A DNA stretch of 64,000 nt, from positions 62,001 through 126,000 of the forward strand of contig NZ_CP082164.1 in NCBI RefSeq assembly GCF_023101685.1, read 5' to 3'. A program made the translations under genes and the position numbers. Below are positions 39,453-43,405 of this stretch, in pieces. The stretch comes from Bradyrhizobium sp. 186 (GTDB lineage: Bacteria > Pseudomonadota > Alphaproteobacteria > Rhizobiales > Xanthobacteraceae). The notes under the pieces were generated by a model. It worked only from the letters and a program-made list of their open reading frames with translations, did no database searches and was not told the origin of the DNA. Positions within the stretch are counted from its first letter, which is position 1. The number at the start of each line of letters is the position of its first letter.

Positions 39453-40562
39453 ATGTCCAACGCCGAGCTATCGATCATCGACGAGGTCGAATCCGCGATT
39501 CGACTCGGCTCGGCGGAAAAGGGCCTGGAAACGGCCCGGCGCGTCACTGACCTGTTCCTGTCCTCCGCCGGCAGCTTCGACGACGAGCAGATCGCGCTGT
39601 TCGACGACGTGCTCGAGCGCCTGATCGGCACGATCGAGCTGCGGGCGATCGCCGATATGGGCGCGCGCATTGCGCTCGCCGAGATCAGCGCGCAGCTCGC
39701 ACCGATCGCGCAGGCGCCGCCGTCCGTGATCCGCCGCCTCGCCAACAATGACGAGATCCGCATCGCCGGCCCCGTGCTCCAGGAATCGGCGCGCCTCGAT
39801 GATGGTGAGCTGGTGAAGATCGCGGCGAGCAAGGGCGAGCCGCATCTGCTCGCGGTCGCCGGCCGCTGGTGGCTGAAGGAGATCGTCACCGACGCGCTGC
39901 TGGCGCGCCGCTATCCGAGCGTCAGCCGGCGGCTTGCCGCCAATCCGGGCGCACGGGTCTCGGGCAGCGGATTTGCCGTCATCGTCGGACAGGCCGAGTC
40001 CGATTCCGAACTCGCCGTGAGCATCGGCGTTCGCGTCGACCTGCCGTCGGAGCTGCGCCGCCAATTGCTGCGCTCGGCGACGGATGTCGTTCGTGCCCGG
40101 CTGCTGTCGCGCGCGCCGCCGCATCTGTTCGAGGAGATCCAGAGTGCTATTGCAGCCGTCACGGTGGGCGTCGAGCGCGAGATGTCGGGTGTTCGCGACT
40201 TCGAAGGTGCCAAGCGTGCCATCGCGAATCTGAAGGCGGCCGGCGAGCTCGGCGAGGCGAGGCTGCTCGGCTTCGCGACGCAGCGGCGCTACGAGGAGAC
40301 TGTCGCTGCCTTGGCGGCGCTGTCCGGATCGACCATCGAGGTCATTCGCCCGTTGATGCAGAGCCTGCGCGACGACGGGCTACTGGTGCCGTGCAAGGCG
40401 GCGCAGCTCAGCTGGGAAACGACGGCTGCCGTGCTGGAAAGCCGCTATGCCACCGGCGCGATGAAGCCGGCCGATCTCGCCAAGGCGCAAGGCCATTTCG
40501 CCCGCATGACGCCGGAGAACGCACGGCGCACGCTCCGGTTCTGGCAGGTGCGGGCGTCGTAG
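39453..40562 (+). CDS. DUF2336 protein
   Basis: A 369-residue, all-helical, HEAT-like protein with the style of the alphaproteobacterial DUF2336 family (FDDVLERLIGTIELRAIADM; IRRLANNDEIRIAGPVL). Function unknown. The start ATG at 39453 precedes SNAELSII and leaves about 100 bp after the pseudouridine synthase gene. Its stop is 40 bases from a family B repeat that is interrupted by an IS110 element. Confidence 0.82.
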   Translation: MSNAELSIIDEVESAIRLGSAEKGLETARRVTDLFLSSAGSFDDEQIALFDDVLERLIGTIELRAIADMGARIALAEISAQLAPIAQAPPSVIRRLANNDEIRIAGPVLQESARLDDGELVKIAASKGEPHLLAVAGRWWLKEIVTDALLARRYPSVSRRLAANPGARVSGSGFAVIVGQAESDSELAVSIGVRVDLPSELRRQLLRSATDVVRARLLSRAPPHLFEEIQSAIAAVTVGVEREMSGVRDFEGAKRAIANLKAAGELGEARLLGFATQRRYEETVAALAALSGSTIEVIRPLMQSLRDDGLLVPCKAAQLSWETTAAVLESRYATGAMKPADLAKAQGHFARMTPENARRTLRFWQVRAS

Positions 40563-40601
40563 ACGGCATCCAGCAAGGCACCACGCATCCACACCCTCGA
40601 T

Positions 40602-40628
40602 GTCGTCCCGGCGAAGGCCGGGACCCAT
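40602..40628. repeat. left half of a family B repeat, interrupted by the IS110 element
   Basis: GTCGTCCCGGCGAAGGCCGG then GACCCAT is identical to the opening of the copy at 35497. The match stops where the IS begins, and the repeat resumes at 42000-42112. Confidence 0.9.
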
Positions 40629-40643
40629 ATGTGGACGGCCCCC

Positions 40644-40884
40644 GTGGCACAAGAGCTTTTTGGTGAGATCGGATCGCTTGCATCCATATGTCCGGCCTGT
40701 TGAGTGCGATGGATTAGATCGCTGGCCAAGATGGTTTGCGCGATGCGGGTTCCAAACAACCCGGCGACCTGCTGGCGGCCAATGGGTCCCACGGAATGTC
40801 TCGCATCGTTGCTCGATCGATCGCTCCATCTGCTCCTGCAGCTCCGGGTCGGCCGGCGAGCGAGCCCGCCGGTCGGCCAATCTG
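40644..40884 (-). ncRNA. candidate bridge RNA region of the IS110-family element
   Basis: This is the long non-coding end downstream of the recombinase gene, where IS1111-group elements are reported to encode their bridge RNA. On the recombinase strand it contains TGGGACCCATT (complement of 40781-40791). That sequence includes GGGACCCAT, identical to the 9 bases of target DNA left of the insertion (40620-40628). Farther 3' it has GGGTTGTT (complement of 40755-40762), which can pair with CAACC at the right target, and ACATAT (complement of 40686-40691), complementary to the left-end junction ATATGT. The order (target loop, then donor loop) fits a bridge RNA. The RNA ends are not defined. Confidence 0.6.
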
Positions 40885-41925
40885 TTAGGCGGGGACTACC
40901 GCGGCGGCATTCAACCGTGCCGCGTCGTAACTCTCGCCGCTGATCATCAGCTTCCAGGCGATGCGGGCCACCTTGTTGGCGAGCGCCACGGCCGCAAGCT
41001 TCGGCGGCTTGCGCGCAATCAGCGCCAGCAGCCAACGTGAGTGTTGGCCGCGGCCTCGTCGGGCCTGCTGGATCACGGCCGTGGCCCCGATCACGAGCAG
41101 CCGCCTCAGATCCTCGTCGCCCGCCCGGGTGATCTTGCCAAGCCTGGTCTTGCCGGCGGTGGAGTGGTCCTTGGGCGTCAATCCCACCCAGGCCGCAAAG
41201 TGACGACCGGAGCGGAACGCCCGCGGATCCGGCGTCTTCATCACCAGCGCGGTGGCAACGATCGGACCGACCGAGGGGATCTGCGCCAAACGCCGGCCCA
41301 TGGCATCGCCACGGTGCCAGGCCATCAGCCTGGCTTCGATCGCCTCCAGCTCGCTCTCGAGCTTGGCGCATTCGCGGCCCAGCACGACAAACAGCTCGCG
41401 CGCCAGGACGGGAAGCGTCTCGTCCTGCGCAATCTGCGCCAGCAACGGCTCGATCTTGTCCAGCCCCTTGGGCGCAATCAGGCCAAACTCCGCCGCATGG
41501 CCGCGGATCGTATTGGTCAACTGAGTGCGCCGGGCGATCAGCCCGTCGCGGATGCCCGTCAGCATCAATGCGGCTTGCTGCTCGGCGCTCTTCACCGGCA
41601 CGAACCGCATGGTCGGTCGGCTCATCGCCTCGCAAAGCCCTTCCGCGTCCCGTCCGTCGTTCTTGTTCCGCGACACGTAGGGCTTCACCAGTTGCGGCGC
41701 CATCAGCTTCACCTCGTGGCCGAGCTTGCGAAGCTCTCGCGCCCAATGTTGCGAAGCCCCGCAGGCCTCCATCCCGATCACGGTCGGCGGCAACTTGGTG
41801 AAGAACTCGAGCACCTGCTTGCGCGAAAGTTTCTTGCGCAGCACAGGCCGCTCATCCTCATCAACCCCATGCAGCACAAAAATATACTTCGACGTATCCA
41901 TTCCAATGCGGATAATCTGGTTCAC
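40885..41925 (-). CDS. IS110-family transposase (DEDD recombinase, IS1111 group)
   Basis: 346 residues. The N-terminal RuvC-like domain supplies D10 (IGMDTSKY), E53 (IGMEACG), D90 and D93 (NKNDGRD). The C-terminal Tnp domain has a helix-hairpin-helix (AQIPSVGPIVATAL) and the conserved Ser255 (DHSTAGK) implicated in strand exchange. I use a GTG start because GCAGGAG lies a few bases upstream; longer frames would begin outside the element. All key residues are present, so it is probably active. Recombinases of this family insert circular intermediates at RNA-guided sites without target duplication. Confidence 0.93.
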   Translation of the reverse strand: MNQIIRIGMDTSKYIFVLHGVDEDERPVLRKKLSRKQVLEFFTKLPPTVIGMEACGASQHWARELRKLGHEVKLMAPQLVKPYVSRNKNDGRDAEGLCEAMSRPTMRFVPVKSAEQQAALMLTGIRDGLIARRTQLTNTIRGHAAEFGLIAPKGLDKIEPLLAQIAQDETLPVLARELFVVLGRECAKLESELEAIEARLMAWHRGDAMGRRLAQIPSVGPIVATALVMKTPDPRAFRSGRHFAAWVGLTPKDHSTAGKTRLGKITRAGDEDLRRLLVIGATAVIQQARRGRGQHSRWLLALIARKPPKLAAVALANKVARIAWKLMISGESYDAARLNAAAVVPA

Positions 41926-41999
41926 GGGCGGCTCCTGCGAATGAGTTTCTGACAACCTCATTCTGGCACACTGATGCCGTAGGGGGCCGTCCACCCCAT

Positions 42000-42112
42000 C
42001 AACCACAGGGAGAAGTTTGACGGAGACTCTCAGTTACTCTGCTTCGCTGGGACAAGCACCGCAGGTGACTGATAGATCACGCGGTATAGGTCCCGGCCTT
42101 CGCCGGGACAAC
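42000..42112. repeat. right half of the interrupted family B repeat
   Basis: AACCACAGGGAGAAGTTTGA continues exactly where the left half stops. Later landmarks GATCACGCGGTATAGG and TCCCGGCCTTCGCCGGGACA match the other copies. Together with 40602-40628 it rebuilds one repeat of about 140 bp. Confidence 0.9.
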
Positions 42113-42151
42113 ATTGGGGATGCAGTTGCGACGCAACTCACGGCAACGGAG

Positions 42152-43405
42152 TCACACCGTCAGCCGCTCGCCATCACTTCCGTCAATCCTCAGCGGCATC
42201 ACGCTCCCGACCTTTGCGCCCGCAATCGCCACCGGCAGATAGTGCTCCGTGCGCCCCTGGCTCCCGCTCTCGATCAGCACGTCGCGGGTCGCGCCGATCT
42301 CGGCTTGCAGCCTCAGCCGTAGCGCGGCCTCACCGGCGAAACGGAGTCGCTTCGCGCGTTCCTTGATGACTGGACCCGCGACCTGCGGCATGCGCGCGGC
42401 CGGCGTGCCGGGGCGCGGCGAATAGGGGAAGACGTGCAGGAAGGTGAGGCCGCATTCCTCGACGAGGTCGAGCGAGCGCGAAAACATCTCCTCCGTCTCG
42501 GTCGGAAAACCCGCGATGACGTCGGCGCCGAACGCAATGTCCGGGCGGAGGCGGCGTACCTGGTCGCAGAATGCGATCGCGTCGCTGCGCGAATGCCGGC
42601 GCTTCATGCGCTTCAAGATCATGTCGTCGCCGGATTGCAGCGACAGATGCAGATGCGGCATCAGCCGCGCATCATCGGCGATGGCGTCGAGCAGATCGGC
42701 ATCGGCCTCGATCGAATCGATCGACGAGATGCGCAGCCGCTTCAATTCCGGCACATGCCGCAGGATCTGCTTCGTCAGCATTCCGAGCTTCGGCGTACCC
42801 GGCAGGTCGGCGCCATAGCTGGTGAGATCGACGCCGGTCAGCACGATCTCGGCATGGCCGCGCTGAGCAAGCGCCCGCACCTGATTAACAATCGCGCCCA
42901 TCGGCACCGAGCGCGAATTGCCGCGGCCGAACGGAATGATGCAGAAGGTGCAGCGATGGTCGCAGCCGTTCTGCACCTGCACGAACACGCGCGGCAGGCC
43001 GGCCGCAAAGCCGTCGACGAGATGCGGCGCCATCTCCTTCACCGCCATGATGTCGCTGACCGCGATCTTCTCGCTGGCGCCGATGGCGAATGCATCGCGC
43101 GCATCGCGCCATGCAGACGTTCGCATCTTGTCGTCATTGCCGACGACGCGATCGACCTCCGCCATGCCGGCAAACATTTGGCTTTGCGTCTGCGCGGCGC
43201 AGCCGGTGACGACGATGCGCGCCTCCGGCCGCTCGCGTTTCAATTTGCGGATCGACTGCCGCGCCTGCGCCACCGCTTCGTTGGTGACGGCGCAGCTGTT
43301 GATGACGATGGTGTCGGAAAGTCCCGCGCCCTCAGCCTCGCGGCGGATCACTTCGGCCTCGAACGCATTGAGGCGGCAGCCGAAGGTGACGACCTCGACG
43401 CCCAT
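42152..43405 (-). CDS. mtaB: tRNA t6A37 methylthiotransferase MtaB
   Basis: A 417-residue radical-SAM enzyme that converts t6A37 to ms2t6A37 in tRNA. Domains: the N-terminal UPF0004 part (VVTFGCRLNAFE, with further Cys in INSCAVT and VTGCAAQ), the radical-SAM core with NGCDHRCTFC, and a C-terminal TRAM-like tail. Length is normal for MtaB. The start codon overlaps the dapF stop (TGATG), so the two are translationally coupled; an in-frame GTG one codon earlier is also possible. Confidence 0.95.
   Translation of the reverse strand: MGVEVVTFGCRLNAFEAEVIRREAEGAGLSDTIVINSCAVTNEAVAQARQSIRKLKRERPEARIVVTGCAAQTQSQMFAGMAEVDRVVGNDDKMRTSAWRDARDAFAIGASEKIAVSDIMAVKEMAPHLVDGFAAGLPRVFVQVQNGCDHRCTFCIIPFGRGNSRSVPMGAIVNQVRALAQRGHAEIVLTGVDLTSYGADLPGTPKLGMLTKQILRHVPELKRLRISSIDSIEADADLLDAIADDARLMPHLHLSLQSGDDMILKRMKRRHSRSDAIAFCDQVRRLRPDIAFGADVIAGFPTETEEMFSRSLDLVEECGLTFLHVFPYSPRPGTPAARMPQVAGPVIKERAKRLRFAGEAALRLRLQAEIGATRDVLIESGSQGRTEHYLPVAIAGAKVGSVMPLRIDGSDGERLTV

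Follow-up and report, generated by a model that had tools for sequence, protein, structure and literature searches.

A predicted guide RNA downstream of an IS1111-type recombinase gene at Bradyrhizobium REP tails: guides and insertion sites change together among relatives

How does an insertion sequence come to lie exactly in the tail of a repeated hairpin, and is this choice of site encoded in its own non-coding end? The question is raised by a locus in the window, the whole stretch of 64,000 nucleotides analysed here (G000:C1:62001-126000), which belongs to a Bradyrhizobium genome of 10.77 Mb in two contigs. The locus had been read, from its letters alone, as an IS1111-group element inserted by its own downstream guide RNA. 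This original prediction is supported by the anatomy of the element, by empty sites, by its copies, by a conserved loop and by covariation in relatives. The features are collected in Table 1.

Table 1. Features of the element, its predicted RNA and its target (positions in the window).
Feature	Position	Strand	Basis
Complete IS1111-type (IS110 family) insertion sequence, 1,372 bp	40629..42000	-	12 full copies at 96-100% in the genome and uninterrupted orthologous sites
DEDD transposase/recombinase gene	40885..41925	-	Pfam PF01548 and PF02371; related by sequence to the ISCro4 and IS621 transposases in the PDB
Subterminal inverted repeat TGGACGGCCCCC, 3 bp from element end	40632..40643	+	Sequence check, copies compared
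Subterminal inverted repeat GGGGGCCGTCCA, 7 bp (CCCCATC) from element end	41982..41993	+	Sequence check, copies compared
Predicted bridge/seek RNA core	40667..40831	-	Covariance model R1 match (L001:1539-1703); window copy among the model's 24 training rows
Guide 1, TGGGACCCAT, 5' strand of predicted target loop	40782..40791	-	Final 9 nt identical to GGGACCCAT, the left target half
Guide 2, CGGGTT, 3' strand of predicted target loop	40758..40763	-	Last 4 nt, GGTT, complementary to AACC, start of the right half
Predicted donor guide AAACCATC	40730..40737	-	Complement of GATGG in the 7-bp tail of the element
Predicted donor guide ACATATGG	40684..40691	-	In recombinase sense, same as ACAT (opposite end of the element) followed by ATGG (first target bases)
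Left half of target, GGGACCCAT	40620..40628	+	Sequence check, empty sites
Right half of target, AACCACAGG	42001..42009	+	Sequence check, empty sites
REP hairpin CGTCCCGGCGAAGGCCGGGAC; 3' arm and tail hold the left target half	40604..40624		Short hairpin form matched 71 times in the genome, its reversed pattern 0 times
Second, inverted REP-like hairpin of the pair, other tail GATAGATCACGCGGT	42071..42109		Same arrangement in uninterrupted L220, L224, L225

Judged by its anatomy, the element is a member of the IS1111 group as described in the part of PMC11187229 available to us. The subterminal inverted repeat is 12 bp long, with tails of 7 bp (GATGGGG) and 3 bp (CAT) in the recombinase sense, a non-coding region of 256 bp (40629-40884) lies downstream of tnp, and target-site duplication is absent, as seen from the uninterrupted orthologous sites in L220, L224 and L225. 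The transposase exceeds the curated Pfam cut-offs for both the DEDD_Tnp_IS110 and the Transposase_20 domains. Its solved relatives by sequence, the ISCro4 and IS621 transposases, align over the C-terminal half, and its nearest named relatives are Bradyrhizobium records with at most 95% identity in the best segment. The start of the gene was placed at GTG 41925; ATG 41961 is also possible, and the mechanical open reading frame reaches 42006, inside the flank. The protein contains GMDTSK, MEACG and NDGRDAE, which we take to hold the DEDD residues. At the usual Ser-Gly of the IS110-family motif G--P----S(t)G, the window recombinase reads Thr-Ala. The motif pattern was matched in 81 of 118 elements, in the forms STA (75), SSA (1) and STG (5), leaving 37 unmatched. 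An Rfam search of 40400-42300 matched nothing up to E=1. Among the papers listed by our literature searches we saw none that treats this Bradyrhizobium IS family or a guide switch inside a single genome, and the element may already have an IS name.

The boundaries of the element could be fixed from uninterrupted sites. The neighbouring gene was matched in 17 of 20 relatives, from which the 12 same-genus loci were inspected. Three of them (L220, L224 and L225) carry an uninterrupted GGGACCCATAACCACAGGG at the same intergenic place; the other nine have no such site at that place, and L223 among them has a REP pair with other tails. The window genome itself contains 17 empty sites in which GGGACCCAT is followed, after 0-12 bases, by ACCACAGG (0 for the reversed pattern), 15 of which read GGGACCCATAACCACAGG and two of which have T for one A. 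The insertion therefore split its site exactly, without duplication. It also follows that C42000 is the element's own base, because the empty sites (three orthologous, and 15 of the 17 in the same genome over the first 18 bases) read GGGACCCATAACCACAGGG. The element thus extends one base beyond the 41999 originally proposed, and a proposed pairing of the RNA with CAACC to the right of the insertion holds only for the four nucleotides AACC that the target offers. The ends could be shifted by one base (an A is shared), and the IS1111 3/7-bp end rule (PMC11187229, in the part available) selects 40629.

The empty unit (window 40604-42109) consists of two REP-like hairpins in inverted orientation, which differ in their tails, CCTGTGGTT and GATAGATCACGCGGT. 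The guide-2 forms GGTT and GCGGT, both found in relatives, correspond to these two tails.

Copies of the element elsewhere in the genome occupy the same kind of site. There are 12 full copies, 96-100% identical, and one internally deleted copy. CCGGGACCCAT precedes all 13, and the element's own C is followed by AACC in all copies except L005 and L011 (AGCC). All 12 full copies share guide 1, so that the check proposed earlier, a search for copies with the same non-coding end at sites lacking the target sequence, came out in favour of guidance. A hairpin whose 3' arm and tail make up the left half of the target is present at 11 of the 12 full copies, the exception being L004, where 95 bases contain no arm pair. 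The transposase might itself read the REP hairpin or sequence, the match in the non-coding end being a coincidence or a captured REP fragment. The hairpin at 11 of 12 copies fits such recognition by the protein alone, as does evidence, cited in the accessible part of PMC1525189, that REPs are selected by the transposase itself in the case of IS1397 and ISKpn1, elements of another family. L004, which follows CCGGGACCCAT without the arm pair, speaks against it.

The distribution and state of the copies deserve a mention. None of the 12 full copies is farther than about 845 kb from the start of the 10.4-Mb contig (G000:C1), which has its DnaA gene at 248 kb; the stretch from 2.09 to 7.21 Mb contains none of the 30 TTATGGGTCCC sites and 5 of the 71 hairpin matches. 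REPs seem to be concentrated in the origin half, with the IS following them. The deleted copy (L013/L014, G000:C1:8165269-8165916) has kept both ends and lies at the same kind of site, with a shortened RNA-model match (36.8 bits). In two of the 12 full copies, L007 and L008, the longest open frame is shortened to 324 and 323 residues, for which reason they may be movable only in trans.

The strings on which the original prediction was built are where it had placed them: the left target GGGACCCAT at 40620-40628 and, on the minus strand, TGGGACCCATT at 40791-40781, GGGTTGTT at 40762-40755 and ACATAT at 40691-40686. The 9-base match is real and exact, and counting every position on both strands makes it less improbable than had been implied. 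The 256-nt non-coding region shares no exact run longer than nine with the 18-nt empty target, and 146 of 20,000 dinucleotide shuffles reached this length. This chance of about 0.7% for the match alone is a point that recognition by the protein alone can claim, and a match of this kind, taken alone, is suggestive and does not settle the matter. GGTT by itself turned up in 30% of 500 shuffles; for ACATAT the figure was 1.8% of 5,000. ACATAT had been taken as complementary to the left junction; it is present, not in the target loop but in the predicted donor part, where its extended form ACATATGG equals the junction of the right end and the target, ACAT|ATGG, in the recombinase sense.

A loop presenting the guides was predicted independently of the target. 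RNAalifold was given an alignment of 24 non-coding regions (that of the window and 23 from the genus) and no target information. The resulting consensus contains an internal loop whose 5' strand bears TGGGACCCAT and whose 3' strand bears CGGGTTGTTT, together with two closing helices and a hairpin cap, so that the conserved internal loop called for by the original prediction was recovered blind, with both guides on its two strands. In the helices of the target arm and one hairpin, 96.6% of cells are paired, as compared with 92.3% after shuffling (0/500) and 25.6-40.3% when the structure is slid, a control that favours the structure because it was derived from the same alignment. Both-sided changes occur in 8 of 22 pairs of the predicted helices. 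The covariance model matched 173 of 265 genus genomes at E<=1e-5 and, in a family sample, 107 of 391 genomes and 20 of 47 genera at 1e-6; these E-values are rough, and weak matches are included as counted. Target guides for both strands within one loop, as expected of a bridge or seek RNA, are predicted by the fold and agree with the covariation described below, and guide 1 lies 5' of guide 2 on the minus strand, which is the IS1111 order. In the putative donor part, the CATC segment matches the 7-bp tail at positions 1, 3, 4 and 5 in 99-100% of 119 rows and at positions 2, 6 and 7 in 65, 66 and 26%. For a possible covariation of ACATATGG with the bases at the start of the target (ATG or CTG, ATGG or ATGA), two changes are in agreement and L096 and L183 disagree. 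A search for a core dinucleotide shared in the manner of IS621 revealed none; -1 is T in 119/119 rows, and at the crossover target and donor have only this T in common.

If the loop directs insertion, its guides should vary with the flanks of relatives. RNA rows were taken from among the matches listed in the genus model search together with genome-copy and related hits, a subset of all matches in the 173 genomes. These gave 165 matches, of which 161 were kept (L013, L209, which is the same copy as L011, L015 and a second match in L207 were omitted). The guide-2 test used 119 of the 161 rows; in 40 the left end was not found, many of these being on short contigs, and L075 and L085 were omitted for irregular left ends. 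The guide-1 test used 152 of the 161. Since some rows are the same copies (L041 and L073, L064 and L169), the shuffle tests were run on distinct guide-flank pairs.

Guide 2 (6 nt) agreed with the flank upstream of the recombinase at 4.75 of 6 positions, against 2.47 after shuffling (22 types, 0/20,000). Identity from -6 to -1 was 0.44, 0.49, 0.86, 0.97, 0.92 and 1.00, rising to 0.99 at -2 with wobble, and the match is weak upstream of the last 4 nt. The register was chosen from a slide table on the same data, in which the best slide gave 0.655 identity and the other eight 0.147-0.363, and it had already been visible by eye in an earlier listing of flanks; with the register off by one the signal vanished (1.74 vs 1.76). 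Guide 1 agreed at 7.85 of 10 positions against 4.96 shuffled (19 types, 152 rows, 0/20,000), with 17% matching at its first position and 71% at its last. Inside the REP family guide 1 varies little, and its agreement there (8.38 vs 7.64, 10 types, 20/20,000) comes mainly from one position, with 99 G-G, 11 A-A, 6 G-A and 1 G-C. No other guide fitted the flanks better than the own one for 14 of 22 guide-2 types and 6 of 19 guide-1 types. A tree built from 69 recombinase sequences requires at least 27 changes of guide 2 and at least 11 of guide 1. Among 12 phylogenetically independent pairs with different guide 2, the own guide was better in nine, tied in two and worse in one (p=0.021).

These results weigh against recognition by the protein alone. 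Inside the REP-directed rows guide 2 still covaries with the side of the site away from the hairpin (4.56 vs 2.63 shuffled, 17 types, 0/20,000), and relatives with similar ends occupy other kinds of site that match their own guides. Taken with the near-identical copies described below, this leaves a transposase that finds REPs unaided as a highly improbable explanation.

Several lineages of this sort have end repeats with at most one mismatch and other guide pairs, and lie at other sites matching those guides. The right flank of REP-directed rows starts with ATGGGTCC in 111 of 120. Where guide 1 is of TCATTCCCA type and guide 2 is TGCCCT or TGCCTT (7 rows), the right flank is ATGGGAATGG in 6/6 and the left flank TGCCCT in the 3/3 that are readable. 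With a guide 1 of CTCGGTTTAC type and TCTCGT (7 rows), left flank TCTCGT and right flank ATGAACC are both found in 7/7. A guide 1 of TAGATTACAC type with CTATGT or CCATGT (23 rows) goes with the left flank ATGT in 16/21 and the right flank CTGCAATCT in 17/22. We also observed that the L212-L218 lineage lies inside another dispersed repeat, ..GGGCTCTCGT|ATGAACCGAGCC.., with wider flanks that are partly alike.

The shortest distance at which guide and site were seen to differ together is within one genome, G092. L069 and L099 are identical, and L100 differs from them at 4 of 1,374 positions (99.7% identity): one difference is in the gene, two are in guide 2 (GGAGTT vs GTGGTT) and one, position 1266, was assigned by hand to the predicted donor segment. 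The flanks read GGAGTT at L069, GGAGCT at L099 and GTGGTT at L100. L069 and L099 are at different places with different wider flanks; therefore at least two insertions carry the GGAGTT form. These copies, 99.7% identical with different guide 2 at different sites, are hard to reconcile with site choice by the protein alone. Tree neighbours of the lineage have GTGGTT or CTGGTT, which suggests, from few rows, that GGAGTT is the derived form; the direction of the switch would follow from this.

Matching alone gives no direction, and guide bases could have been copied from the flank after insertion, in which case the match would be no sign of guidance. Against such copying stand identical elements whose guide is unchanged while their flanks vary: six copies in G195 with 0 differences have the flanks CGCGGT, TGGGGT and GGTGGT, and eight in G097 with 0 differences have GTGGTT and GTGGCT. 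Moreover, guides equal to the own flank copy by copy were found in none of the 22 groups compared. A guide that follows its site is therefore very hard to credit. Not every guide difference has a counterpart in the site: near-identical copies in G237 differ in guide 2 and their sites do not follow, and the single difference between L114 and L122 in G036 is in guide 1, unmatched by the site. The idea that the guides are hypermutated was rejected, 11 of 22 hand-picked within-genome groups or pairs having no difference at all; in the window genome, one of 105 variable columns falls in guide 2 and none in guide 1.

We conclude that the element is of IS1111 type and was very probably guided to this place by the target loop of its own downstream RNA, and that in its relatives the guides change separately and the sites match them. 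The observations bear directly on the anatomy, the choice of site, the exact insertion, the conserved loop, the covariation and one near-identical set with a switched guide. The rest of the mechanism can be sketched by homology. A transcript of the non-coding region would be processed into the RNA and bound by the recombinase, as in seekRNA and bridge RNA systems. The RNA would fold such that the strands of its target loop read both sides of the insertion point, a guide of 8-9 nt reading the REP foot (ATGGGTCCC, recombinase sense) and a guide of 4-6 nt the preceding sequence (..GGTT), and a second part would read the element's own ends. The DEDD recombinase and the RNA would then join the circularised element into the REP tail between GGGACCCAT and AACCACAGGG, without duplication. 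We infer transcription, RNA-protein binding, the circular intermediate and the order of these steps from such homologues. Among relatives each target guide changes on its own, guide 2 the more frequently, and the sites occupied match the changed guide.

How such retargeting proceeds is a further question. On balance we lean towards a route of one half-guide at a time and few substitutions, in which the long guide stays anchored on the REP foot and the short guide drifts among tails. A copy would thereby keep a nearly usable site while guide 2 opens new ones; in G092, the two changed guide-2 bases go with two separate insertions at sites carrying them. Such a stepwise route, visible at within-genome distance, would be new if true.

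IS110-family RNA-guided recombinases are studied as genome-engineering tools, and few cases are known of how they change target in nature. Redirection itself has been described before, in the accessible part of PMC11187229, for ISEc11/ISXne4 (72% protein identity, target region replaced) and for ISEc21/ISMch6 (72% identity, one copy), where three bases of one target-matching region, a half-guide, are altered. What is new here is a dense series of guide changes in one genus, from identical copies to fully retargeted relatives and down to 99.7% DNA identity within one genome, in which the two target guides are seen changing separately. Existing elements thus make the retargeting route, the tolerated mismatches (e.g. 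wobble at -2) and the donor contribution testable.

The system is of a known kind, and the element is a new IS1111-type member, at REP tails. By eye, the hairpin at its target resembles the CGTC-1 REPs of Bradyrhizobium in the accessible part of PMC3733652 (tag TGTC/CGTC, 8-bp stem, 4-bp loop, CCA tail, dimers), whereas the first stem pairs differ, GT/AC in CGTC-1 and AT in the window. That survey saw few associations of CGTC repeats with transposase genes, all deemed fortuitous; here a mobile IS family sits at their tails. In inserting into REPs the element is like ISPa11, ISPpu9, ISPpu10 and ISRm19, IS110-family elements treated in PMC1525189, the available portion of which describes no RNA guide; the word Bradyrhizobium is absent from that paper's text. 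With the IS621/IS110 bridge RNA, as far as the available part of PMC11208160 describes it, the predicted RNA shares a target loop followed by a donor region, guides of 8-9 nt and 4-7 nt, REP targeting and natural guides concordant with sites. Unlike in IS621, the RNA is downstream of the gene, the subterminal inverted repeat is long and no shared core dinucleotide is evident, the target reading TT, CT or GT against AT in the donor, with only the T common. The closest likeness is to the IS1111 elements with seekRNA (ISEc11, ISPa11, ISKpn4) in the same portion of PMC11187229, with their repeats of 11-13 bp and 7- and 3-bp tails: the downstream non-coding region, the subterminal repeats and tails, the lack of target duplication, the complement of the top strand 5' of that of the bottom strand, and a REP target as in ISPa11 are all found here. 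TA stands where SG is usual in the recombinase motif, a form noted there as occasional. In contrast to those elements, the present one belongs to another host genus, its target is the tails of Bradyrhizobium REPs, and its relatives form a graded series that reaches DNA copies 99.7% identical in one genome.
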